Below, piece after piece: positions 4,209 to 52,006 of a stretch of DNA of 52,006 nt (its first letter is position 1; each line of letters opens with the position of its first letter). Position numbers and translations under genes: made by a program. The stretch spans positions 1 to 52,006 of the forward strand of contig JAFTSU010000020.1 of NCBI GenBank assembly GCA_017467105.1, read 5' to 3'. This DNA is from Clostridia bacterium. Lineage in GTDB: Bacteria; Bacillota; Clostridia; Oscillospirales; CAG-272. Under the pieces are notes generated by a model. The model was not told the DNA's origin. It saw only the letters and a list, made by a program, of their open reading frames with translations, and made no database searches.

Positions 4209-6194
4209 ATGATAATCAATGAGCTTTTATCTATTGGAGAATATGCCGCGGCAGGCTTATACGAGGAGACGGACAGAGATTTATTCTACAGAAAGTCGTT
4301 AGCTCTCAGAAGATACTATGAAAAATGCGAGCTTGCAGAATACAGAGGAGAGTATCTTTATCCATCCGGTGTGACGGAGCAGAAAATGCGCGTTGCTCCA
4401 AGCTATCTTACCGGACTAAGCTTTAACGCTCTTAGTCGGGATATGCTTACGTCCGACTCGTTCGAAAGGCTCTCGCGGGAATTTTGCGCTTACCGATCCT
4501 CCGTTCCCGAGGAGCATACCGTGGCGGGAAATATGTACACCCACTCTATCCCTCACTACGAAAGAATACTGAGGGAGGGTTTATCCTCATATACCGATAG
4601 AATAAAGCAAATCGAAGATACGGATATGCGCGAGGGACTCTTGCACGTTGTCAAAGGAATTGAATGCCATCTGTCACGCTGTATCGACTATCTTGAATCA
4701 GTCCACGCTGACAGGCGGCTGATCGACGCTCTCAGGACTGTGCCGATGAATCCTGCCAAAAGCGCATACGAGGCGATAGTAGGATGGAACTACATAATGT
4801 ATCTTGACGGTTGCGATAACATTGGGTGTCTGGATACGGGACTTATGCCTTATTATAATGGCGAGAACCTTGTACCCTATTTAGAAAATCTATACGATAA
4901 TCTTGACAAAAACAACGGATACTCTATGTCGTTGGGTTCTCTATGTCCCTCTCTGACATTACAGTGTCTCAGAGCGGCGAAGGGCAGACGCAGACCGATG
5001 ATCGAGCTTTTTGTGGATGAAAGCACACCGGAGGAGATATGGCGCGAGGCTATCTCGACTGTGAAAAGCGGAGGGGGACAGCCTGCCTTCTATAACGGTG
5101 ATGCGCTGCTTGGCGGTCTGAAAAGACGATTCCCCACCATCAGAAGCGAGGATCTCAAAAGATTCTGCGGCGGCGGATGCACTGAGTCTATGCTTGCGGG
5201 ACTTTCTAACGTCGGCTCCCTTGACGCAGGTATAAATCTGCTGCTCATACTGGAAAAAACAATATACGCGGAGCTTGCCCGGTCCGAAAGCTTTGAAAGC
5301 TTTTATGAGAAATATACGGGCGAAGTCCAAAAGACTGTAGAAAAGGTAAAGGGTGAGATCAATCGCTCGAGAGCTAAAAGGGCGAAATACAATCCTCTGC
5401 CCATGCGCACTCTGCTGATAGACGACTGCATAGAAAGGGGCGTAGAGTATAACGGAGGCGGAGCGAGATACGGCTGGAGTATAATAAGCTTTGCGGGTCT
5501 TATAAACGTGATCGACTCGCTCTTGGCGATAAAGACGCTCGTCTTTGACGAGAGAAAATATACGGGCACAGAGCTTACCGAGCTGCTGCGTGATGGAAAC
5601 GAAGCATTACTCTCTGAGGTAATAAGGCTGGAAAAATGTCACGGAAAGGATATAGATGAGGTCAACGAATTTGCTCATTGCCTAAGTAAAAGGATATTCT
5701 CTATGACCGAGGGTGGAGAGCTTATCTTTGGCGAAGGATTTCTCTCTGCGTCTATTCAGTTCTCCTCCCAGGCATACGCGGGCAGGAATATCGGCTCAAC
5801 GCCTGACGGACGGACCGCAGGCTCGCCGCTGTGCGACTCCTTAGCCGCGATATTCGGAAAGGATAAATACGGTCCTACGGCACTCTTGAACAGCGTTACG
5901 GCGCTTGATCTGAGCGGTGCTCTCGGCGTACCTGTGGTTAATCTCAATATTTCCAATAATTTTTCAGACGAAATACTTAAGGCGCTGATACTCGGATATA
6001 TGAAGAAGGGCGGAATTCAGCTGCAGATCACTTATGCGTCCAGAGAGGAGCTGGAGGATGCCTACCTGCATCCGGAAAGACACGGTAATCTGATAGTGCG
6101 CGTAGGCGGATACTCGGAGTACTTCAACAGACTGCCCGATGAGCTGAAGCGTATGATAATAAACCGAACGGTACAGGAGGGTGGGCATCAATGA
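4209..6194 (+). CDS. Glycyl radical enzyme of the pyruvate formate-lyase/diol dehydratase superfamily, short form
   Basis: The C-terminal signature RVGGYSEYF (R631-F639) is the glycyl radical loop, with Gly634 as the radical site. The catalytic Cys region reads FCGGGCTES, giving Cys324 followed by Thr and Glu326: the C-x-E arrangement of the eliminase/dehydratase branch (glycerol dehydratase, CutC, propanediol dehydratase), not the Cys-Cys of pyruvate formate-lyase. The extra Cys320 four residues earlier is unusual. At 661 residues it is about 100-200 shorter than most family members. The start has AGAGGTGA before ATG. The stop overlaps the activase start by four bases, so the two are translationally coupled. 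Substrate unknown. Oxygen-sensitive chemistry implies an anaerobe. Confidence 0.85.
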   Translation: MIINELLSIGEYAAAGLYEETDRDLFYRKSLALRRYYEKCELAEYRGEYLYPSGVTEQKMRVAPSYLTGLSFNALSRDMLTSDSFERLSREFCAYRSSVPEEHTVAGNMYTHSIPHYERILREGLSSYTDRIKQIEDTDMREGLLHVVKGIECHLSRCIDYLESVHADRRLIDALRTVPMNPAKSAYEAIVGWNYIMYLDGCDNIGCLDTGLMPYYNGENLVPYLENLYDNLDKNNGYSMSLGSLCPSLTLQCLRAAKGRRRPMIELFVDESTPEEIWREAISTVKSGGGQPAFYNGDALLGGLKRRFPTIRSEDLKRFCGGGCTESMLAGLSNVGSLDAGINLLLILEKTIYAELARSESFESFYEKYTGEVQKTVEKVKGEINRSRAKRAKYNPLPMRTLLIDDCIERGVEYNGGGARYGWSIISFAGLINVIDSLLAIKTLVFDERKYTGTELTELLRDGNEALLSEVIRLEKCHGKDIDEVNEFAHCLSKRIFSMTEGGELIFGEGFLSASIQFSSQAYAGRNIGSTPDGRTAGSPLCDSLAAIFGKDKYGPTALLNSVTALDLSGALGVPVVNLNISNNFSDEILKALILGYMKKGGIQLQITYASREELEDAYLHPERHGNLIVRVGGYSEYFNRLPDELKRMIINRTVQEGGHQ

Positions 6195-7057
6195 ACGGCA
6201 GAATACTGAATATTCAACGCTTCTGTACCGAGGACGGACCGGGAATCAGAACGACGGTGTTTATGAAGGGCTGCCCTCTTAGGTGTATATGGTGCCATAA
6301 TCCCGAGTCGCAGAAAGTCTGTGCTGAGATATCCTTCAACAAAAGCAAATGCGTTGAGTGCGGAAAATGCGCCGCCGTATGTGAGAATGGTTGCCGTGCG
6401 AATAAGAAGCATGCCCTCTACCAAAGAAAGCTCTGCGCGGGCTGCGGTAAATGCGCTGAAATATGCGAGAGCGGAGCGCTAGAGAAGCACGGTGAGATCA
6501 GGTCAGCTGATGAAATTTGCAGAGTCATCCTGAAGGATCGGGTATATTACGAAGCATCGGGGGGCGGCGTAACTCTCTCCGGTGGAGAGCCGCTCTACCA
6601 ATGGGAGCTTGCTGAGGAGATATTGAGAAGGTGCTCGGACGAGGGAATACACACCGCCATCGAGACGTGCGGATACGGAAGCGAGAAGGTATTCCGCCAA
6701 GTAATAAAACACTGCGATCTTGTGCTTTTCGACATCAAGGAAACTGACGCCGCACTGCATAAACGCTACACGGGGGTGGACTTAAAGCCTATACTCCGCA
6801 ATTTATCCATATTGAACAGCGAGGAGATCCCCTTTTTTATAAGAGCGCCAATAATTCCCTCTTTGAACGACCGTATCGAGCATTTCACGGCTCTGCGGAA
6901 GCTAAGAGAATCTATGAAGAGCTGCCTCGGAATACAAGTCATGCCATACCATAATATCGGCAGGCACAAGTACGATCTGCTTGGGCGTGATTATGCGTGT
7001 GAGGACATTCCGGAGCCGGACGCCGCTCTTACGGAGTATTGGAAATCTCTTATTTAA
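6191..7057 (+). CDS. Glycyl radical enzyme activating protein (radical SAM)
   Basis: The 288-residue protein begins with the family start NIQRFCTEDGPGIRTTVF and the radical-SAM cluster motif C28-x3-C32-x2-C35 (GCPLRCIWCHNPES), which cleaves S-adenosylmethionine. A ferredoxin-like insert follows with two 4Fe-4S motifs, C54-C57-C60-C64 and C82-C85-C88-C92, as in the activases of the dehydratase-type enzymes. VTLSGGEPLYQ (126-136) is the SAM-binding GGE motif. Its ATG overlaps the TGA of the glycyl radical enzyme (ATGA), so it is made together with its partner, on which it installs the glycyl radical. A terminator closes the operon. Confidence 0.93.
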   Translation: MNGRILNIQRFCTEDGPGIRTTVFMKGCPLRCIWCHNPESQKVCAEISFNKSKCVECGKCAAVCENGCRANKKHALYQRKLCAGCGKCAEICESGALEKHGEIRSADEICRVILKDRVYYEASGGGVTLSGGEPLYQWELAEEILRRCSDEGIHTAIETCGYGSEKVFRQVIKHCDLVLFDIKETDAALHKRYTGVDLKPILRNLSILNSEEIPFFIRAPIIPSLNDRIEHFTALRKLRESMKSCLGIQVMPYHNIGRHKYDLLGRDYACEDIPEPDAALTEYWKSLI

Positions 7058-43243: not shown

Positions 43244-44758
43244 TTAATCGGTGGAGGTTGCCGAGTATTCAGCAATCAATTCGTCAAGATTTCCGATGAG
43301 CTGATAGTACACACTTCTATTATCACCAATATAAAAATATTCTCCCCTAATGAAATATACTCTTTCACCATGTATTTCAAAGTAGTGAGTGGGAAGCTTA
43401 TCATTAAGGTAAACATCATCTGTAAGCTCTGTAAATTCAAACTCGGAAAATGGGATTTCACAAACGGGAGTTTCATCAATAAGATAAATTTGGTAAGGAT
43501 TATACTGTCTCTCGAAGCCGTAACGAGTTACAAAATTCGTTCCGTCACGGAACAAGGGAAGGCGCACAAGCTCAAAATAGTTGCCGTTTCCGTCGTGATA
43601 AAAATCACCGTTTATAAAGTACAACTGTTTAGTTTCTCCGTTATTCAAAATGAACTGAACAATAAAATAGCCGCCGTCCGCAATCTGAGTTCTTTCCTCT
43701 GAAACAGGCCTTGAATCGAGCCAATAATATTCCTCAAAAATGTTAGCAATTACCGCTTTATCTTGTGAGATCGAAATATGCGTTTTCGAAACGGGTGGCA
43801 AGGGACCGCCACCGCCCGAGATCATCTTGATTTCTGCAATATCCTCGGCGGTTATTTCACAAAGCCACTGCGCTCCCGCCTGATTGCGAATAAAGTGATT
43901 GCCCTCTGCTACCATTTGATAAGAGCAGATATCACACAATCCGTCGCCGTCACCGTCCAAATGAAGCTCCGCAATATCATTGGATTCACAACCGCAGGTG
44001 TATTCATAGAAATGGACCATCTCGTTCTTGAACCACTTGCCCGTATGCTCGTGCTCCGGCATAACGTATCCGCAAGCATCACAGATATAGTCACCATTTT
44101 CATCATAATGCGGTACAGCTCCGTGGTCGTGGGGGCATCCGCACGTATAGTTTTCAAAATGTCCCGATTCGCCGGCGGAAACATAGGTAATAGTATGCTC
44201 GTGTTCTTCCTCTTTCAGAACATAGAAGCCACTAAGGGGAGCTTCCGAGCCACGGCGGAGCGAAATCTGTGTGTTATAAGTGAATTTCTTATTTCCGTAT
44301 TCAAGTGTATTTGTACTCACATCGTAAATTACGAGTATGATAAATTCCACGTCACCGTTTTCATCGGTGCTACCGTCTGAAAATACGAAAACATAATCGC
44401 CTTCTAAAACCCGAAAACTATCAAGCTCGGTGGCGGGCTCAAAATAATAGGTTGTGAAAACACCTGCCAAAGTGTTTTTCTGCTCTCCGCGTGTGCCGAG
44501 ATATTTATACTCCTCGGAACACAAATAATCATATACCGACTTTACGTAAGCCTTAAATTCGCTATCGGTAAGATAGACGTAAATATCTTCGTCGCCCGAA
44601 TTTACATAATCCTTTTCGACGGTAGGCAAATCACCTACGAGACAGTTAGTTAATTTTTCTTCCGAAAACCATTCGTTTTCTTCGTGTGCGCTACCGCACG
44701 ATGCAAGACAGCATAAGCATAAAACTGCCGTCAAGCATAAAGCTAATAACTTTTTCAT
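43244..44758 (-). CDS. Lipoprotein with duplicated cysteine-rich D-x-D-G-x-C-D-x-C linker
   Basis: The 504-residue protein has a lipoprotein signal (Cys21 in CLASC). An N-terminal domain (about 25-180) is followed by two copies of an H-y-D-x-x-G-D-x-x-C-D-x-C unit: HYDENGDYICDACGY and HLDGDGDGLCDICSY, each preceded by a YTCGC segment and joined by PEHEHTG. A second domain (about 300-500) is rich in aromatic strands (GYFIVQFILNNGETKQLYFI). The Cys/His/Asp units could bind zinc or calcium, or act as a structural spacer. A single copy occurs in the nucleotidase lipoprotein at 13.5 kb. Function unknown; surface anchored. Confidence 0.68.
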   Translation of the reverse strand: MKKLLALCLTAVLCLCCLASCGSAHEENEWFSEEKLTNCLVGDLPTVEKDYVNSGDEDIYVYLTDSEFKAYVKSVYDYLCSEEYKYLGTRGEQKNTLAGVFTTYYFEPATELDSFRVLEGDYVFVFSDGSTDENGDVEFIILVIYDVSTNTLEYGNKKFTYNTQISLRRGSEAPLSGFYVLKEEEHEHTITYVSAGESGHFENYTCGCPHDHGAVPHYDENGDYICDACGYVMPEHEHTGKWFKNEMVHFYEYTCGCESNDIAELHLDGDGDGLCDICSYQMVAEGNHFIRNQAGAQWLCEITAEDIAEIKMISGGGGPLPPVSKTHISISQDKAVIANIFEEYYWLDSRPVSEERTQIADGGYFIVQFILNNGETKQLYFINGDFYHDGNGNYFELVRLPLFRDGTNFVTRYGFERQYNPYQIYLIDETPVCEIPFSEFEFTELTDDVYLNDKLPTHYFEIHGERVYFIRGEYFYIGDNRSVYYQLIGNLDELIAEYSATSTD

Positions 44759-45620: not shown

Positions 45621-46126
45621 CTACTCATTTTCTCCCACCATTTATAAATGCGTGGCATTTTGCGGTTGATCTCGTCACAGATACGTTGATATATTCCTTC
45701 ATCATATTTCTGTACGTGAATATCAAAACGCTTGGGTTTATAGGTTTCCATCTTCTTTTCGCTGACACCCTCATATATGATGCCGCCGAAAATCTGAATG
45801 ATATAAACGTCGGTGTAATAGAAAATCTCTCCGAAACGGCTTTTCAGCTCATACCTCTTTCCGCAATCATCGGCTGTAAGCTCGTCAAGCTCACCTGTGA
45901 AGAAATGATAGTCTATGTTTTGCTCCCATTTCTCTCTGTCTGGGTACGCAACCGATGCTTCCACGTGAAAAGCGTTGCCGTACTTATCCTTAGGAAAAGA
46001 TATGAGTTCGATTCTATCGGGGAAAACTCTCCTGTAATGAGGAAATTTTCCCTCAAAACCGTCTGCTTTGAGCTTTGCGATAACTTCACGCTCAAGAGCT
46101 GCGTTCATTTTCTGAGCTTGTGTCAT
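45617..46126 (-). CDS. DUF4304-like protein
   Basis: The 169-residue protein has no signal. The opening EREVIAKLKADGFEGKFPHYRRVFPDRIELISF has the 'l...L...GF.....tf.r......v..iqf' character of DUF4304 proteins, and the rest is basic and aromatic. The stop overlaps the membrane protein start (ATGA). It follows a 30-residue leader ORF and an attenuator-like hairpin on the same transcript. DUF4304 proteins are often small accessory or immunity-type proteins; no function can be assigned here. Confidence 0.55.
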   Translation of the reverse strand: MTQAQKMNAALEREVIAKLKADGFEGKFPHYRRVFPDRIELISFPKDKYGNAFHVEASVAYPDREKWEQNIDYHFFTGELDELTADDCGKRYELKSRFGEIFYYTDVYIIQIFGGIIYEGVSEKKMETYKPKRFDIHVQKYDEGIYQRICDEINRKMPRIYKWWEKMSR

Positions 46127-46148
46127 AATAATAACCTCAAAATAGAAA

Positions 46149-46191
46149 AGCCATTCAACAAAAAGGCACAGTACACCTATGTTAAATGGCT
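46149..46191 (-). terminator. Hairpin with T-run between leader ORF and DUF4304-like gene (attenuator-like)
   Basis: Minus strand: AGCCATTTAACA (46191-46180) pairs with TGTTGAATGGCT (46160-46149), 12 pairs including one wobble that exists only on this strand, then TTTTCTATTTT. It begins at the leader ORF's stop codon, so translation could influence its folding. Confidence 0.65.
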
Positions 46192-46283
46192 CAATGGTTT
46201 TTTATAAAAGTGACATCGGTAAGGGGCGAGCCGAACAATACGCGAAAGAGTCTATCAAAAAGACTTTGTCGCTCTTTTGACAT
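46191..46283 (-). CDS. 30-residue leader ORF
   Basis: It encodes MSKERQSLFDRLFRVLF then GSPLTDVTFIKNH and stops at 46191. It has a good ribosome binding site (AAAGGGG, seven bases before ATG) and lies directly behind a near-consensus promoter (46316-46344). The peptide could form an amphipathic helix (SLFDRLFRVLF). Its stop codon touches the terminator-like hairpin before the DUF4304-like gene, the geometry of a leader peptide or of a small independent protein. Confidence 0.5.
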   Translation of the reverse strand: MSKERQSLFDRLFRVLFGSPLTDVTFIKNH

Positions 46284-46315
46284 ACTGTAACCCCTTTCGA
46301 TAATTTTCTAGTTTA

Positions 46316-46344
46316 AGTATAGCATATTTTTATATAAAATTCAA
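46316..46344 (-). promoter_or_regulatory. Promoter of the leader ORF and following minus-strand genes
   Basis: Minus strand: TTGAAT (46344-46339), 17 bp, TATACT (46321-46316), extended -10 TG. Confidence 0.8.
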
Positions 46345-46470
46345 TAGTTTACGGTTTGGAACTTGTTTTTCTGCGAAAAAATCAAGTAATTAATAAAAGC
46401 TGATAAAGCAGCCGTTTTATTCATGTAACCGTAGGACTTTAAAAACGAAAAAGTTTCGTTAAAGGCGTAC

Positions 46471-46499
46471 TTGTTTTTCATACTTCTTTATGTTATAAT
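46471..46499 (+). promoter_or_regulatory. Promoter of the GH9-like gene
   Basis: TTGTTT (46471-46476), 17 bp, TATAAT (46494-46499), extended -10 TG. Confidence 0.8.
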
Positions 46500-46549
46500 T
46501 AGCGCAAAGCAAGGCGTGGAACAAACTTTAATAATTGGAGGCAATGATG

Positions 46550-48253
46550 ATGAATAAATCGGAATCAAAAAATGCTATACGCGTGAATATGCGAGGCTTT
46601 CTTCCAAACAGTCCAAAGAGATTCGTTCTTTGTGAAAATTTATCCGGCTCTGATGAATTTACAGTAACTCTTATACACGGTGAATTCGTAGAGCATACTG
46701 TGGTTTACAAAGGTACTATGCTTACTGAATATGATGAATTTGGCTCAAGCTTTCAGGTTGGAGATTTTTCTGATATTACGGACGATGGAGATTACTACAT
46801 AACTGCCGGAGGAGTAACCAGCCGGCAATTCGTTATATATAAAAATGCATATGACATCTGTCAGCGTATGATGTTGGAATATTACACCTATCAAAGATGC
46901 GGACACGCTCTCGGATGGAACGGAAAATGTCACACGGATGACGGATATATTGCCGAAACCGGCGAGCACGTTGACCTATCCGGAGGATATCATCAATCCT
47001 GCGATCTAAGAAAATCTCCGGGCGGAGTTTCTATCGGAGTATTGAATATGCTGAGATTTGCCCTTGATGATAGATCGGAATGGGGCGAGATACTCGTAAA
47101 CGACGAGGTCAAGTGGGCTTGCGATTATTTTGTAAAGCTGATACAGGATAACGGTGTAATGTACAATACAATGAATGACCCTTTCGGTTGGTCCGGAAGA
47201 ATATTCTACAAATCTGCTGCCCCATCCTCAAGCCAGTGGAACACAACGTCGATCCTGGCGCTTGGTTATTCTTATTTTAAGGAAAAGGACAGCGGTAGAG
47301 CCGAAAGCTATCTGAAGGCGGCAATACGCTCCTATGAATATCTGACCTCCGAGATGCGTACTGCCGAAAAGTATCGTCATCCCGGAAAAGCACAGCGAGG
47401 CTTTGACCCGGATTTCTTCTACGATCTGTGCCAAAAGGATTCTACGGCAGACAGGCTATATAGAATAATGACGGACTGTGATCTATACGAAGCGACGGGA
47501 AATGAGAATTACAAGGAAGATATCAAAAGAGTGCTTCCCTCGGTGCTTGAAAAATTCCTTTCCGGAAATCTGGCTTTCCTTGCCGAAGAGACGTTTCATC
47601 GCGGTGGTACTGTCAGCGGAGCTTGTAATTATTGCTGGTCACCTGCTTATCCTTTTGCTCTGATTAAAGCTTACGAGGTTGTCGGGGATGTTTTCGGACT
47701 GAAGGAGAAAATTCGCGCGGCATCTGACGCAATAGTAGAAAGCGCGCGACTCAGTATATGGGGGGACGCAAAATTCTTCAGATCGGAAGAGGACCTGAAC
47801 AAAAAGGCAGATATGCCAAAGCCCAATCAACCGGATCCTACATTAAAGGAAAAATATAAGGATAAGCTCGTTTGTGTAGGCAAGGAAAACGGTCAGAATT
47901 TCTACCTGATAAGAACAGGTATACTTTCACCAATCTGCACTGTACTTGGTGCCTTTCTTGCAGCTGCATCAAAAATTTTATCTGAGAGAAAATATTTGAT
48001 TTATGCGCAAAGGGCACTTGACGCTATGCTTGGTGTAAATCCGGATGATTCGAGCCACGTGCGCGGAATCGGATATAACCACGTTATGCACAAGGCCTAC
48101 GGTCAGTTCTTCCCTTCCACACCGTTTATACCCGGCGCGGTTCAGGTTTCGTATAGCGGTACCAAGCTAAACAATATGTTCGCCGAATACGATATGCCCC
48201 AGGTAGGTAATATGATGAGACTGATTTGTGAGGTTTGTAAGGCTAGCAACTAA
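46550..48253 (+). CDS. GH9-like glycoside hydrolase with N-terminal CelD_N Ig domain
   Basis: Three ATGs lie in a row behind TTGGAGG. The one at 46550 has the best spacing (8 bases), giving 567 residues; a TTG at 46535 is part of the binding site itself. Residues 10-95 form the Ig-like domain of GH9 enzymes (IRVNMRGFLPNSPKRFVL ... DDGDYYITAGGVTSRQFVI). The (alpha/alpha)6 barrel follows. The catalytic base region DLSGGYHQSCD corresponds to the canonical DxSGGWxDAGD but keeps only the last Asp (Asp152); Gln149 replaces the first. The end has MLGVNPDDSSHVRGIGYNHV and AEYDMPQVGNM. No signal peptide, so an intracellular oligosaccharide-degrading enzyme is likely. Confidence 0.8.
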   Translation: MNKSESKNAIRVNMRGFLPNSPKRFVLCENLSGSDEFTVTLIHGEFVEHTVVYKGTMLTEYDEFGSSFQVGDFSDITDDGDYYITAGGVTSRQFVIYKNAYDICQRMMLEYYTYQRCGHALGWNGKCHTDDGYIAETGEHVDLSGGYHQSCDLRKSPGGVSIGVLNMLRFALDDRSEWGEILVNDEVKWACDYFVKLIQDNGVMYNTMNDPFGWSGRIFYKSAAPSSSQWNTTSILALGYSYFKEKDSGRAESYLKAAIRSYEYLTSEMRTAEKYRHPGKAQRGFDPDFFYDLCQKDSTADRLYRIMTDCDLYEATGNENYKEDIKRVLPSVLEKFLSGNLAFLAEETFHRGGTVSGACNYCWSPAYPFALIKAYEVVGDVFGLKEKIRAASDAIVESARLSIWGDAKFFRSEEDLNKKADMPKPNQPDPTLKEKYKDKLVCVGKENGQNFYLIRTGILSPICTVLGAFLAAASKILSERKYLIYAQRALDAMLGVNPDDSSHVRGIGYNHVMHKAYGQFFPSTPFIPGAVQVSYSGTKLNNMFAEYDMPQVGNMMRLICEVCKASN

Positions 48254-48429
48254 AGCGTAAAAGCCAAGTATCAAACCAAAAACGCAAAAAGGATAATCAG
48301 ATGACTTTAGTTTAAAGTGAAAGAGTTTTGAGATGTCTTCGGTTGTACAAATAAAAAAATTTGGCGAAAGCGAATAACGCACCTTTGTATGTTTTTTTAT
48401 TTGTATATCTATTTATCTTTGTATGCGCG

Positions 48430-48455
48430 GGCGGGTTCGACTCTTGGGCATCTAC
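48430..48455 (+). other. tRNA/tmRNA 3'-end-like sequence, isolated
   Basis: GGCGGGTTCGACTCTTGG followed by GCATCTACCA has the T-loop TTCGACT and a terminal ACCA, like the end of a tRNA or tmRNA. No matching acceptor or anticodon arms lie upstream and the T-stem does not pair, so it is not a gene. Such fragments mark att sites or decayed tRNA. Confidence 0.35.
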
Positions 48456-48490
48456 CAAACAAAAAAGGCACGTAGGTGCCTTTTTGTTTG
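48456..48490. terminator. Terminator downstream of the GH9-like gene
   Basis: CAAACAAAAA and GGCAC pair with GTGCC and TTTTTGTTTG around GTAG. A- and T-rich arms make it bidirectional. The 200 bp between the GH9 stop and this hairpin shows no gene. Confidence 0.85.
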
Positions 48491-48571
48491 CGAGTAACCT
48501 ATGAAAAGGATACAAAATCCTAATGGGTTCATTTGGCAAAATGGGTTCAACTATAACGAATGGGTGCATTT

Positions 48572-48907
48572 TCACATCATTATCTCTGTATCGAAGAATT
48601 TTTCTTGAAAAGCAACCGAATTCGTGATTTCTTCCTTTGTGAAAGACTTGCCTTCAGGAGCTACAACCCATTTATCCTCGATGTCATTAAGTCGATGGAT
48701 AACGGCAATAACCTTTCCAACAAATTCCGTAACAGGTTCATTTACGCCTAAAATATAGGCGTCTTGTTCTTCACCGTCAGGAGCAAAAAAATCGGGAATG
48801 TAACCATAGTTAACACTATATATCAAATCATTGTGATTCGGATGAGCAGAGCCAAGCGGTCTATCAACTATGACTTTTACAATATTTCCTATCATAAGTT
48901 CTTCCAT
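48572..48907 (-). CDS. Small inorganic pyrophosphatase-like protein
   Basis: The 111-residue protein reads GNIVKVIVDRPLGSAHPNHNDLIYSVNYGYI then an acidic segment DGEEQDAYILGVNEPV and VIAVIHRLNDIEDKWVVAPEG. This follows the order of family I pyrophosphatases (YPvNYGyiP, then D-x-x-D metal loop 'DGDPLDvlvl', then 'D.kii'). It is much shorter than the 170-residue housekeeping enzyme, and the DxxxD metal loop is altered to DGEEQDA. It may have a different small-molecule substrate. The start has no strong SD; it begins three bases after the broken four-helix gene. Confidence 0.65.
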   Translation of the reverse strand: MEELMIGNIVKVIVDRPLGSAHPNHNDLIYSVNYGYIPDFFAPDGEEQDAYILGVNEPVTEFVGKVIAVIHRLNDIEDKWVVAPEGKSFTKEEITNSVAFQEKFFDTEIMM

Positions 48908-48910
48908 AAA

Positions 48911-49258
48911 TCATCTTTGTTCTTTTAATGTTTTACAGCTTGATATTAACATTCATCTGATTCTACCGCACAGATTGCGATGGTTTTTGTATGTTTCTTC
49001 ATCAATGCCACTTGTATTAAACAGTAGCTGTAACCAACCTTCAGTTTCGCTGCATTCTTTGAGGGCTATTTCAAATTTTGAAAGCATGTCTGCTTTGCTT
49101 TGACCGTAGTTTGCCTCATTGATATTGGCATAAACACTGCTTGAACTTTTTCAAATTTGAAAAAGTGTATTTGACGGTGCCTTAATACTTTGACACATCA
49201 ATTCAATATCGGTCGCAAGCTGTTCGGAATATATCAATAAATAGTTCTTTGATATAAT
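48911..49258 (-). pseudogene. Four-helix-bundle protein (23S rRNA IVP / Avd-like), broken by two in-frame TGA codons
   Basis: Reading the minus strand from about 49258 gives ISKNYLLIYSEQLATDIE ... SNTLFQI, stop, KSSSSVYANINEANYGQSKA, DMLSKFEIALKECSETEGWL, then NLCGRIR, stop, MLISSCKTLKEQR. The S-x-YANINEA...DMLSKFEIALKEC...EGWL core is diagnostic of the four-helix-bundle family of 23S rRNA intervening-sequence proteins and the Avd protein of diversity-generating retroelements. Two TGA codons interrupt conserved helices. TGA ends many intact genes here, so recoding is unlikely. There is no ATG or GTG at the front. A consensus promoter still points into it and its -35 overlaps the first hairpin of the adjacent array. 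Confidence 0.72.
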
Positions 49259-49275
49259 ATCACCTTTTTGAGTGT

Positions 49276-49304
49276 ATTATACCACATTTTAAAATTGAAA
49301 TCAA
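49276..49304 (-). promoter_or_regulatory. Promoter pointing into the broken four-helix gene
   Basis: Minus strand: TTGATT (49304-49299), 17 bp, TATAAT (49281-49276), extended -10 TG. Confidence 0.75.
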
Positions 49305-49577
49305 GGCGTTAGCCTTGTATATCATCCGTCCTAAAACGAGTATATCTCGCTTTTGGACGAGTATATCATCAATGCAAAGCATTGTATATCATCAAACCGC
49401 AGGGAGATCCAGCCCCAAAGGGGCTGATGAGATACAAGGGCGGTTCGCCGCCCTTGATGATATACGAATGTATGTCTCGCCGCAGGCGAGTTATACATTC
49501 AATGATATGCCAAGCCGAAGGCTTGTCGCCTGCGGCTTGGATAAAAAAATCCGCATTCTTGCGAATGCGGATTTTTT
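49302..49577. repeat. Array of eight hairpins joined by GTATATCATC / GATGATATAC linkers
   Basis: Stems: CAAGGC/GCCTTG (49302-49317), a 14-bp arm pair at 49327-49340/49346-49359, AATGC/GCATT (49371-49383), AGCCCC/GGGGCT (49411-49425), CAAGGGCGG/CCGCCCTTG (49435-49456), nested GAATGTAT/ATACATTC with CTCGCC/GGCGAG (49466-49500), CCAAGCCG/CGGCTTGG (49510-49540), and a 15-bp AAAAAATCCGCATTC stem (49544-49577). Left-half linkers read GTATATCATC (three times). Right-half linkers read its complement (GATGAGATAC, GATGATATAC, and AATGATATG C-ending), so the whole array is itself roughly palindromic. No gene lies here. Confidence 0.85.
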
Positions 49578-49660
49578 GCGAAAGAACGACCCAAAGGTGC
49601 GTAAAGCAAGGTAAGAACGACTAAAAGTACACCTTAAACTGCTCGATAAATTGGAATTTG
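49576..49660 (-). repeat. 85-bp dispersed repeat, copy 1
   Basis: Ungapped match of 76 of 85 bases to 51746-51830. On the minus strand it lies between the zinc-ribbon gene's stop and a terminator-type hairpin (49544-49577). Each copy holds an internal pair of AGTCGYTCTT-like words. Confidence 0.85.
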
Positions 49661-49681
49661 ACTCTCTCACAATTTGAAATC

Positions 49682-49831
49682 TTATTTCTTTATTACTTTC
49701 TTACACCAAGTGCGTTTATTGCATTTTGGGCACTTTAAATAACGGGTAAATCCCATGTGCATTGCATTCATTGCTTCTTTATAAGTAGGCACTATTTCGT
49801 GCCCACAGTTTTTACACTTGTAAGCACCCAC
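49682..49831 (-). CDS. Small zinc-ribbon protein
   Basis: The ORF is open back to 49879, but a strong promoter (-10 at 49875-49870) places the transcript start after that ATG, so the GTG at 49831 is preferred (49 residues). YKCKNCGHE and LKCPKCNKRTWCKK give Cys6, Cys9, Cys34, Cys37, a C-x2-C ... C-x2-C zinc ribbon, with an extra Cys43. The basic tail could contact nucleic acid. Tiny zinc ribbons like this are common and of unknown role in Clostridia. The ribosome binding site is weak. Confidence 0.65.
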   Translation of the reverse strand: MGAYKCKNCGHEIVPTYKEAMNAMHMGFTRYLKCPKCNKRTWCKKVIKK

Positions 49832-49869
49832 ACTGACTTCAAGCTTTAACGCATAGAAAGTTATTATAA

Positions 49870-49898
49870 AGTATAGCACAAACCTTTAGTATTTGCAA
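49870..49898 (-). promoter_or_regulatory. Promoter of the zinc-ribbon gene
   Basis: Minus strand: TTGCAA (49898-49893), 17 bp, TATACT (49875-49870), extended -10 TG. Confidence 0.75.
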
Positions 49899-49960
49899 TA
49901 GAATTGGATCAATTTTCGATATTTTTTTACATCCCCGGAGCATTACCGTGTCACGCCTCG

Positions 49961-50012
49961 CCAAAAATAAAAAAACAAGGTGCTGTCTCAAATCGGAGTT
50001 TGAGACAGCACC
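49961..50012 (-). terminator. Terminator of the Gfo/Idh/MocA gene
   Basis: A perfect 14-bp stem GGTGCTGTCTCAAA / TTTGAGACAGCACC (49979-50012) with a 6-nt loop, followed on the minus strand by a T-rich run. Confidence 0.92.
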
Positions 50013-50065
50013 GCTCAAGTGGTCATGAGCTCTTCCGGGATGCATCACCACAAGAAATCTTAGAT

Positions 50066-51085
50066 TTATACGTATTCGGGTTTTTCTGCCTTTCCGCTTG
50101 CCGAGGCTCTGACACACGCATCGCACACCGCAACCGTGTTCGCGCCCTCCTCTGCGGGAACGGGAGAGGAAAGTCCGTTTACAATAGCGTTATAGAAGAG
50201 CTTGACCTCCTCTTCTGCATTGTGATCCTTCAGCTCAACGGGGTAGAGATCCGGCTCCCAGTATGGGCGTCCCTCTGCATTTACCTTGGGCTGGAAGAGC
50301 TGTATCTCGGGTGATCTGTTATCACAGATGATAGTGCCCTTTGTTCCGTAAATGACCGTGCGCATGGTGTAGTTTCTCTTGCATCCGATAGAGCAGAATA
50401 CCTTACCGAGTGCACCGGATGGGAACTTCATGATAGCGATCGTGCAGTCGTCAACAGGCCAGTTATCCAGCACCATGTGGTTGGAATATGCAGAAACCTC
50501 TGTGGGATCACCAGCGATCCATCGTATAAGATCCACCGCGTGGCATCCGCCGCCTGTAATACCGTGTCTGAGCTTGACGGGATCAAGTCGCCATGGTGAG
50601 TTGATGTGTGAGTAATCGTGAGCGTACTCGGACTCAATAAAGAATATATCGCCGATCTCGCCCGCGTCAACAAGCTCCTTTGCTTTGACAAAGCCGGGTG
50701 TCATTCGGCAAACCTGTCCGACCATGAATATACCCTTTGATTTGTGCGAGGCTTCAACGATCGCACGGCAGTCCTCCATCGTCAGGGCAAGGGGCTTCTC
50801 ACACAAAACGTGATATCCTGCCTCAAGCGCCGCAACAGCCTGCTCGCGGTGAATCTGATCCGGCGTGCAGATGATCACAGCCTCGAATCCGCCTGCCTTC
50901 AGCATCTCGTAGTAGTCAAGATAGTAGGGAACACCGCGCTCCTCGGATCTTTTCTTCGCCTTCGCCTCGTCGATGTCGCAAACGCATACGAGCTCAGCAC
51001 CGTCTATTGCCGCAATTCCATCGCTGTGCCTGTTCGCCATGTTACAGCATCCGACAACGGCAAAGCGAATCTTACTGTTTTCCAT
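50066..51085 (-). CDS. Gfo/Idh/MocA family NAD(P)-dependent oxidoreductase
   Basis: Start at 51085 (AAGGAGAAAGAA before ATG); the longer ORF back to 51169 overlaps the promoter. The 339-residue protein has a Rossmann start (IRFAVVGCCNMANRH, with GCC replacing the usual GxG pattern partly), the DIDEAKAKK nucleotide region, ICTPDQIHREQA and the family hallmark CEKPLAL (Glu96-Lys97-Pro98). GGGCHAVDLIRW carries the catalytic His of the C-terminal alpha/beta domain. Family members oxidise or reduce sugars, inositols or sugar derivatives; the substrate is unknown. It sits alone between a promoter and a strong terminator. Confidence 0.9.
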   Translation of the reverse strand: MENSKIRFAVVGCCNMANRHSDGIAAIDGAELVCVCDIDEAKAKKRSEERGVPYYLDYYEMLKAGGFEAVIICTPDQIHREQAVAALEAGYHVLCEKPLALTMEDCRAIVEASHKSKGIFMVGQVCRMTPGFVKAKELVDAGEIGDIFFIESEYAHDYSHINSPWRLDPVKLRHGITGGGCHAVDLIRWIAGDPTEVSAYSNHMVLDNWPVDDCTIAIMKFPSGALGKVFCSIGCKRNYTMRTVIYGTKGTIICDNRSPEIQLFQPKVNAEGRPYWEPDLYPVELKDHNAEEEVKLFYNAIVNGLSSPVPAEEGANTVAVCDACVRASASGKAEKPEYV

Positions 51086-51140
51086 TTCTTTCTCCTTAAT
51101 ATAACCCGCGACAGGCTGCCGCAGGGCGTGATTTAAAAAC

Positions 51141-51169
51141 ATTATATCACCGCAAAACGGTAAAGTCAA
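51141..51169 (-). promoter_or_regulatory. Promoter of the Gfo/Idh/MocA gene
   Basis: Minus strand: TTGACT (51169-51164), 17 bp, TATAAT (51146-51141), extended -10 TG. Confidence 0.85.
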
Positions 51170-51220
51170 GGTGCATTTATAATTTTACACCGAATGTTTT
51201 CACGCGCCTCGCCGCCTTGA

Positions 51221-51580
51221 TCAGCCGTTTTTTCTGACGTAGTGAATAACGCAATCTCCCACGTCGGTGAATTCCTCTATCTCATATTCAAGCCTGCCGC
51301 TCTTGTATATTTCAGTGTACAGCAGGGGCAGATCCTCTGTCCTGCCCATCGCAATCTCCCAGCCACCGTCCGGCAGATAAATTCTGACGTTGCATCCGTC
51401 TATCTCGCCGTTCTTCAGACCTATCGCGTATTCGATCGTGTCACCGTGCCAGCCGTAGCCAAGCCCGCGGAGATTTTCAAGCCCGTAGATCTCTGCCATC
51501 TCGTCCCAAAAGACACCGATGGTCTCATACTGTTCTTCGTTTTTCAGCGAAAACGTCCTTTTAATTCCCGTAAATACCAT
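51221..51580 (-). CDS. GyrI-like small-molecule-binding domain protein
   Basis: The 119-residue protein (ATG at 51580; a TTG at 51592 would also work) matches the stand-alone GyrI/AraC-effector-binding fold: FTGIKRTFSLKNEEQYETIGVFWDEMAEIYG, LGYGWHGDTIEYAIGL, WEIAMGRTEDLPLLYTEIYKSG and the closing DVGDCVIHYVRKNG. Such domains bind cationic or hydrophobic small molecules, and some hydrolyse cyclopropanone-type toxins. Conserved Trp and Glu positions are present. No neighbour clarifies its role. Confidence 0.68.
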   Translation of the reverse strand: MVFTGIKRTFSLKNEEQYETIGVFWDEMAEIYGLENLRGLGYGWHGDTIEYAIGLKNGEIDGCNVRIYLPDGGWEIAMGRTEDLPLLYTEIYKSGRLEYEIEEFTDVGDCVIHYVRKNG

Positions 51581-51670
51581 TTTACCGCCCAATTCTCCGA
51601 GATAAACGCTCGGTATAATTTAAAAAGCTTGAAGGTTAAAAAAATTAACCACAGCCCGACACAAATGGAT

Positions 51671-51697
51671 GAAGAGTTCAAATCTCTTCACCTGCCT
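51671..51697 (+). other. tRNA 3'-end-like T-arm sequence, isolated
   Basis: GAAGAG-TTCAAAT-CTCTTC forms a T-arm with a 7-base T-loop of the TTCRANY type and is followed by ACCTGCC, but no tRNA body precedes it. It may be an integration scar or decayed tRNA. Confidence 0.3.
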
Positions 51698-51745
51698 TTG
51701 ATAAAAGAAAACCGCAACCCCTTTGTATCAAAATTGCGTTTTTTG

Positions 51746-51830
51746 TTGCGAAAGAACGACTAAAAGGTGCGTAAAGTGTGGTAAGAGCGACTAAAAGTAC
51801 ACCTTAAACCGCTCGATAAATTGTGATTTG
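51746..51830 (-). repeat. 85-bp dispersed repeat, copy 2
   Basis: It matches copy 1 (49576-49660) at 76 of 85 positions without gaps. On the minus strand it directly follows the stop of the GNAT gene and leads into a CGCAA/TTGCG hairpin (51711-51740), the same arrangement as copy 1. Confidence 0.85.
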
Positions 51831-52006
51831 TCACTCTTTTTTATAAACAAAATTCAGTAGTTCAGCTTCTTTTGATACGAATGCAAATCCAGCCTTCTCG
51901 AACAATCTTAAAGATCCAATATTTTCTTCATCAATGGAAATTTCAATGCTTTTATAACCGAGTTCAAAAATATCATCTTGAATATCTTTGACAATACTTG
52001 TACCTA
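51831..52006 (-). CDS. GNAT family N-acetyltransferase, 3' end only
   Basis: The last 57 residues are visible, reading GTSIVKDIQDDIFELGYKSI, EISIDEENIGSLRLFEKAGF, then AFVSKEAELLNFVYKKE. The 'v...N.gsi.lfek.GF' segment is motif B of the GNAT fold, which closes the acetyl-CoA site. The gene continues beyond the window's right edge, so the substrate side is not visible. The acceptor is unknown. Confidence 0.75.
   Translation of the reverse strand, partial: GTSIVKDIQDDIFELGYKSIEISIDEENIGSLRLFEKAGFAFVSKEAELLNFVYKKE

Follow-up and report, generated by a model that had tools for sequence, protein, structure and literature searches.

Hairpin arrays behind tRNA genes as the probable left ends of small mobile elements that often carry a four-helix IVP gene

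In the window, that is, the whole stretch of 52,006 nucleotides that we analysed from a Clostridia bacterium, one decayed unit lies on the minus strand with CGCA at both of its junctions (Table 1). Its hairpin array and a second ORF remain, and its four-helix IVP gene is dead. The IVP family is recognised by PF05635 over the cut-off, by TIGR02436 and by a match to PDB 2rld (E 2.5e-15), and the dead gene shares 96% identity with an intact paralogue that lies on contig C23 of the same genome. Judging from its profile matches, the 111-aa second ORF is a probable cargo gene, weakly pyrophosphatase-like. The first hexamer of the promoter-like site of the IVP gene falls in the end of the last hairpin of the array; since a scan of the window found 7 such sites against 4.7 in shuffles, we call this promoter from its position and its recurrence in relatives. 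An earlier note on this DNA had held that the four-helix protein died here and that its promoter overlaps the adjoining hairpin. Both points were borne out, the former by two in-frame TGA codons in the PF05635 gene and the latter by the TTGATT that starts in the last hairpin and belongs to a recurrent site. The extent given to the feature in that note was too small, as the unit, judged by eye from its ends, spans about 49577 to 48489 (minus strand). There is no complete tRNA gene anywhere in the window. Beyond the unit's right end, a terminator hairpin is followed by an inverted tRNA 3′ half (48433-48489), as if copied back, and by eye the same appearance is seen behind tRNA-Cys at loci L307, L310, L314, L316, L317 and L319. 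Elsewhere on the minus strand of the window, a second right-end-like repeat pair (51797, 51766) with a terminator stands at 51745-51840 with no array behind it. A lipoprotein-like gene at 43244-44758 (minus strand) is akin to the gene behind the intact IVP gene of locus L038, with 88 of the first 180 residues equal in an ungapped comparison, and it is probably cargo shared between units, as far as this resemblance can tell.

Table 1. Features of the decayed unit and its borders in the window
Feature	Position	Strand	Remarks
Whole element unit, decayed	48489..49577	-	Order: terminator, array, dead IVP gene, second ORF, right end; ends set by eye from marks in relatives
Preceding unit's right end	49578..49660	-	Two direct repeats about 30 bp apart (49627, 49597), CGCA end
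Terminator hairpin opening the unit	49544..49577	-	15-bp perfect arms, T-run then ATCC
Outer hairpin	49510..49540	-	5′ arm pairs with pivot
Left-hand linker 1	49501..49509	-	Variant CATATCATT
Left-hand linker 2	49456..49465	-	GTATATCATC
Left-hand linker 3	49426..49434	-	Variant TATCTCATC
Pivot	49394..49403	-	Reverse complement of outer hairpin 5′ arm, 9/10 match in window copy
Right-hand linker 1	49384..49393	-	GATGATATAC on the minus strand
Right-hand linker 2	49361..49370	-	
Right-hand linker 3	49317..49326	-	
Promoter-like site of IVP gene	49304-49276	-	TTGATT-17-TATAAT, sigma-70-like
Dead four-helix IVP/S23 gene	48917..49255	-	PF05635 61.6 bits, two in-frame TGA
Second ORF, 111 aa	48572..48907	-	PF00719 17.9 bits, below cut-off 23.5; NCBIfam weak
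Right end	48489..48565	-	Three ACCCATT repeats (48565, 48546, 48528), terminal CTCGCA
Terminator hairpin beyond right end	48460..48489		Taken as native
tRNA 3′-half-like fragment with CCA end	48433..48457	+	Faces the unit from the opposite side; by eye

The array comprises eight hairpins at 49300-49577, as had been claimed, one of them being the A-run/T-run terminator hairpin that opens the unit. It folds strongly on both strands: the folding energies are -138.2 and -140.2 kcal/mol, where shuffles average -77.3 and -75.2 (z -13.3 and -13.1 against dinucleotide shuffles), and 0 of 200 shuffles were as low. The linker GTATATCATC has four copies in the 52-kb window, every one inside the array, where 0.14 would be expected; it is exact on the plus strand at 49317, 49361 and 49384 and on the minus strand at 49456, and the remaining two left-hand linkers (minus strand) are variants. 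The linker direction flips at the unpaired stretch that we term the pivot. The mirror symmetry described earlier is therefore real with respect to this flip and imperfect in its left half, where two linkers deviate. Rfam covariance models matched nothing up to E 1 across 46000-52006 of the window, which rules out a known RNA family as the identity of the array.

Our draft of the same genome is 1.68 Mb long and 57% complete. It holds 48 copies of the linker, mostly in about 10 clusters, against 7 of the reversed pattern, and the isolated matches that we read were chance-like, bar a few decayed arrays. Of its five PF05635 matches, three adjoin arrays of the type seen in the window, a fourth (on C9) adjoins an array with another linker (TATGTAATC / GATAACATAC) behind tRNA-Cys, and the fifth is a weak fragment below the cut-off. 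Arrays in this draft lie behind tRNA-Trp, tRNA-Leu and tRNA-Gln genes, and one follows a 52-bp tRNA-Leu 3′ fragment.

IVP homologues are found in 255 of the 395 genomes of the same bacterial family. To examine their surroundings free of any array profile, genome contigs were scanned with the four-helix protein alone, and the best 80 of 369 relatives were kept; nine of these 80 were dropped for short upstream sequence, and 64 loci with at least 400 bp upstream were counted. Among these best relatives, an array (at least three linkers, one mismatch allowed) lay within 500 bp upstream of the IVP start at 63 of the 64 loci, against 2 of 1135 control bins within the same loci. At the sole exception, L086, the array stands directly behind tRNA-Tyr at 4481-4706, about 1.3 kb upstream of the gene. 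The expectation that arrays would be found beside intact four-helix genes elsewhere was thus upheld. The linker alone, with its 10 bases, is too short to serve as a marker, being present in 145 of 146 family genomes. In a more distant set of 40 loci from the same family (46-68% identity), nearly all showed by eye an upstream hairpin array built on some other constant linker, L243 having an array remnant only. A joint threshold asked for at least seven hairpins within 400 nt and also for a 6-mer recurring on both strands. It was passed by 62 of 64 type 1 loci, by 28 of the 40 distant ones and by 9 of 221 random windows; the repeated-linker count alone discriminates poorly (39/40 distant loci, 108/221 random windows, 13/29 loci from the phylum). 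None of the 29 IVP loci from other families of the phylum passed the joint threshold, none having at least seven hairpins, so that a general link between IVP and array beyond the bacterial family was rejected. By eye, those phylum loci have short tandem repeats near the gene in place of hairpin arrays, and their PF05635 genes sit in 23S rRNA, by tmRNA- or RNase P RNA-like sequence, or right after stop codons (L285, L294, L297, L289, L296, L304, L291, L277, L283). Phage origin was also rejected: in viral contigs the protein gave one distant partial match, and only L333, L337 and L339 among 15 matches to the DNA pattern had right-hand linkers. PADLOC gave no match for the three proteins submitted to it.

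The linkers at the distant loci, like the linker types and right ends in general, were initially read by eye. They include TATGGAATC or TATGTAATC, AATGATG, CTCGATATG, AATGAAAT, GTGATATT and GTGAAAT, as well as the type 1 motif in reversed order; a further locus, L313, has ATGAAGC. When linker type was mapped on a tree of 69 proteins, it changed 13 times, against a mean of 39.2 in shuffles (0/200 as low). Types 4, 5 and 7 each make up one clade; the two linkers of type 2 separate into sister clades, except that L252 ties between them. The tree holds 69 of 113 proteins, type 1 being thinned to about one third and identical rows dropped, and its bootstrap had not settled; the number of changes is inflated by three type 1 rows (L139, L141, L159), which have tandem arrays and were wrongly called T6. 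Joint inheritance in cis alone could also produce this tracking of linker and protein and is the main alternative to recognition. The IVP genes are under purifying selection, with a median dN/dS of 0.044 (312 of 400 sampled pairs, 54 genes), a rough figure because dS averages 1.5, close to saturation, and 88 pairs could not be used; for the same reason, dS between IVP copies gives no sign of recent spread. Among 33 first ORFs found after arrays (50 units, 700 nt downstream), seven form one cluster, the IVP, and 26 are singletons, so that the IVP is the only recurring gene. The suggestion that the array is the partner of the four-helix protein therefore holds in part. Arrays do adjoin intact genes and their linker type follows the protein subfamily; most arrays, however, have no four-helix gene next to them, and IVPs of other families are arrayless (0/29). 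Because the IVP makes up only 7 of the 33 first ORFs, we regard the array as the end of a tRNA-associated element and not as the private partner of one gene. Promoter-like sites were present behind the array in 55 of the 69 copies of type 1 and in none of the 20 of type 2; since nothing of the kind separates array and IVP gene in type 2, the array may be transcribed there.

The fold of the array is conserved beyond its hairpins. We collected 111 arrays by their linkers, not by the pivot, and aligned 61 type 1 arrays after removing other sizes and near-copies. In these 61 the linkers are nearly invariant and the stems differ between arrays, just as the earlier note had proposed from the single array in the window. 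What the alignment bears out is this difference between stems, their exchange as cassettes being a conjecture of that note. Every one of the 111 arrays repeats the ten bases that follow TTTATCC further downstream as a reverse complement with at least 8/10 matches, 75 of them exactly; between arrays with unlike outer hairpins, a 10/10 match never occurred and a 9/10 match occurred in 25 of 1110 comparisons. The resulting long-range stem between outer arm and pivot pairs in 95.7% of the 608 cells of the alignment and shows 89 double changes; its covariation is 0.441 against 0.146 in shuffles, and slid versions of it pair at 33-51%. RNAalifold picks this stem unprompted, with compensatory change in 26 of 46 pairs. 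The competing outer hairpin is also conserved (87.6%, a figure hurt by an alignment shift in one sequence class). Outside type 1, an inverted repeat of at least 9 nt whose arms lie 45-190 nt apart occurs in 38 of 40 upstream regions, compared with 67 of 68 in type 1 and 42 of 230 controls; in some of the non-type-1 regions, the longest inverted pair joins linker to linker rather than involving the pivot.

The arrays are placed at tRNA gene ends. A complete tRNA gene lies within 550 bp upstream of the IVP gene at 51 of 64 loci and is of 15 isotypes (63 relatives and one own locus, each with at least 450 bp upstream), and at 22 of the 40 distant loci a tRNA lies on the same strand no more than 900 nt away. 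An array-first pattern, TTTATCCN{13,14}GGYATATCATC, matched in 98 of 395 genomes and 36 of 71 genera, with 0 matches for its reversed control. Its distribution is patchy, many genomes being without a match although congeners have one. Where 130 nt upstream were available in other genomes, 23 of 44 array-first units stand directly behind a complete tRNA gene (nine isotypes). The remaining 21 have no complete tRNA gene directly before them, and by eye many of them come after either a tRNA 3′ fragment with a CCA end or the NCA with which a previous unit closes; the 40 regions read were picked by us from the listed places, away from contig starts, and not at random. A terminator-like hairpin comes just before the array in 110 of 111 cases, and the triplet before it is CCA in 88 of 110, ACA in 8 and GCA in 4. 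Since an identical terminator is found behind different tRNAs, it seems to travel with the element. Units in tandem occur at one tRNA, and tRNA 3′ fragments flank some units (52 bp at L038, 19 bp at L135 and L140, 18 bp at L151).

From these loci, a common plan of the unit emerges. It opens with a terminator hairpin and a fishbone-like array, which consists of an outer hairpin, left hairpins on one linker, the pivot, and right hairpins on the reverse-complement linker; often an IVP gene and/or an unrelated gene follows, and then a right end. The unit has the native terminator on one side and, on the other, the tRNA's encoded CCA or the NCA of a preceding unit, and it carries a terminator of its own. 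In type 1, the best-read type and the one for which the right end is described, two direct repeats 31 bp apart lead to an NCA end (GGCA or CGCA) wherever the downstream sequence could be aligned; the right ends of types 2 and 8 could not be placed. An empty site is seen in genome G536 (L307), of the same genus, where the CCA of tRNA-Cys is directly followed by the terminator. In G522 (L306), the same tRNA-Cys is occupied: its CCA is followed by a 301-bp type 1 element and then by the same terminator with few changes. This copy has no IVP gene, its longest stop-free stretch being at most 72 codons. At L151, a 176-bp block that begins with a terminator stands directly behind tRNA-Leu and recurs with two mismatches behind the right end of an IVP-bearing unit, so that it flanks that unit on both sides (5562-5737; 6775-6950). 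The block contains the terminator, a hairpin-rich stretch and an 18-bp tRNA-Leu 3′ end, and may itself be a small tRNA-end element of another kind. Both an occupied and an empty version of a site, by which a mobile element is recognised, were found at L306 and L307 and also at L151.

Based on these findings, we consider it probable that the array forms the left end of a family of small mobile elements in gut Clostridia, which we call tRNA-tail elements, with the IVP as their putative recognition factor. The elements are mobile or formerly mobile, having a folded left end, a precise placement at CCA, IVP-less derivatives and the IVP as signature gene. That the IVP reads the array is suggested by its recurrence, by the covariation of linker and protein and by the selection on it, and the IVP-less copies, having the same array, presumably moved in trans. 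Our proposal for the process is more tentative: quite possibly, an IVP that has no recombinase or reverse transcriptase of its own, together with a folded self-complementary end, can place DNA at the CCA end of nearly any tRNA gene, also acting in trans on copies that lack it. In such a scheme, four-helix subunits arranged as a ring would bind to the folded single strand, whether DNA or RNA, at its subfamily-specific linkers, with the variable stems as spacers. The pivot would compete for the arm of the outer hairpin and thereby switch or hold the end for joining at the CCA terminus, and a host enzyme would cut and join. Dependence on a reverse transcriptase, as in diversity-generating retroelements (DGRs) or otherwise, was ruled out by a search that found this enzyme in one of eight array-rich genomes and in none of our own draft. 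Dependence on RAYT or IS200 was likewise ruled out, the Y1 transposase (PF01797) being matched in 3 of 9 array-rich genomes and not in the other six, nor in our own draft.

The phage-integrase family (PF00589) is distributed differently: it is found in 8 of 9 genomes and in all eight good ones, our 57% complete draft having none. Of these three enzyme families, none is tied to the elements. The presence of PF00589 in every good genome suits an arrangement in which a tyrosine recombinase acts in trans, integron-like or as host Xer, on the array as a folded site with the IVP as the commonest passenger. Unrelated small genes behind the same array, units in tandem at one tRNA and tRNA 3′ fragments flanking some units, as at integrase sites, would all be natural there. 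Nevertheless, we hold it to be unlikely, because isotypes with different 3′ sequences are all used, unlike at a usual integrase site, genome G010 has eight left ends and a single PF00589 match, and the linker type follows the IVP, which alone recurs.

The array might instead act as RNA, a leader or small RNA that controls tRNA read-through or the downstream gene and is passed on by vertical descent. One arm with two alternative partners, both conserved, is indeed switch-like, and the missing promoter-like sites between array and IVP gene in type 2 point the same way. Occupied and empty sites, patchy presence, copies with other genes or none, and the promoter-like site behind the array in most type 1 copies speak against it, and as a full account we find it improbable; a function as RNA and the mobile-element reading are compatible. 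Least plausible by far is a passive build-up, in which fold-back copying, without any dedicated machinery, would enlarge palindromes and spread them near terminators. Inverted tRNA 3′ halves after several terminators, and gene ends followed by their own inverted copy at rlmD-like genes (both by eye), look like products of such copying. It would hardly yield a single architecture with constant linkers and pivot in 111 arrays, nor precise placement and selection on the IVP.

Comparison of tRNA-tail elements with known systems places them nearest to intervening sequence (IVS) elements and REP/RAYT pairs, each of which has a defining feature that fails here. An rRNA IVS has complementary ends that form one stem cut by RNase III. 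S23/IVP proteins are, to our knowledge, ORFs of such sequences with function there unknown. PMC4990558 describes the Coxiella 23S rRNA IVS, which encodes a PF05635 protein and has heptamer repeats upstream of the ORF, as a selfish element and its IVP as expendable. The tRNA-tail elements likewise encode a PF05635 four-helix protein with repeats upstream of the ORF. Unlike the IVS, type 1 units stand behind CCA/NCA ends and not in a 23S helix, they have a multi-hairpin array with a pivot, copies exist with no IVP or with other genes, and the IVP is conserved by selection. At the loci read around arrays, no array turned up within a 23S rRNA gene. With REP/REPIN-RAYT (TnpAREP) systems, as portrayed in PMC8266576, they share diverse palindromes, non-autonomous copies and sites that co-evolve with the protein; here, too, the palindrome signature covaries with the protein (13 changes against 39.2). 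They differ in having a four-helix IVP and not an HUH enzyme, the first gene being IVP or a singleton, and in having ends of 6 or 7 hairpins on constant linkers with tRNA as target. The ends of IS200/IS605 elements are folded single strands with a guide, an internal segment that is the complement of a different stretch of that end. A folded end with an internal complement is shared by the tRNA-tail elements, which differ in the lack of Y1 in most array-rich genomes, in the longer complement and in the target. Integron gene cassettes are small unrelated genes with a folded site, in tandem, and so are tRNA-tail units, except that these lie behind many tRNA genes and that the IVP recurs. Avd is a helper of retroelements (DGRs). 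It resembles PF05635 proteins according to PMC10053308; in contrast to DGRs with Avd, seven of eight array-rich genomes and our own draft have no reverse transcriptase. Islands that integrate at tRNA genes bring their own integrase, and the sole recurring gene here, as regards the first genes, which were the ones examined, is the IVP. Among open-licence PMC papers we found no description of such elements, which is not proof of novelty.

If our reading is true, the S23/IVP family gains a role as the structure-reading factor of a selfish element, and since the linkers change with the protein, recognition becomes directly testable in vitro. The element would exploit the encoded CCA, the one feature common to tRNA genes, and its own terminator should spare the host. 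If IVP and a host enzyme suffice, this would be a route of transposition with no known recombinase; if they do not, there is a defined junction at which to look for the missing enzyme.

Type 4 elements occupy a different site, the 3′ end of the RlmD gene, which was confirmed at L265 (NCBIfam rumA 221 bits, cut-off 183.55) and seen by eye at eight further loci. L269 is located behind groEL, and the gene preceding L258 and L274 is taken to be GGGtGRT, a name for which NCBIfam gave no match. At L256, L257, L259, L262-L265, L267 and L272, the end of the RlmD-like gene is followed by its own inverted copy, which opens the type 4 array, and gene end and element arm vary in concert.
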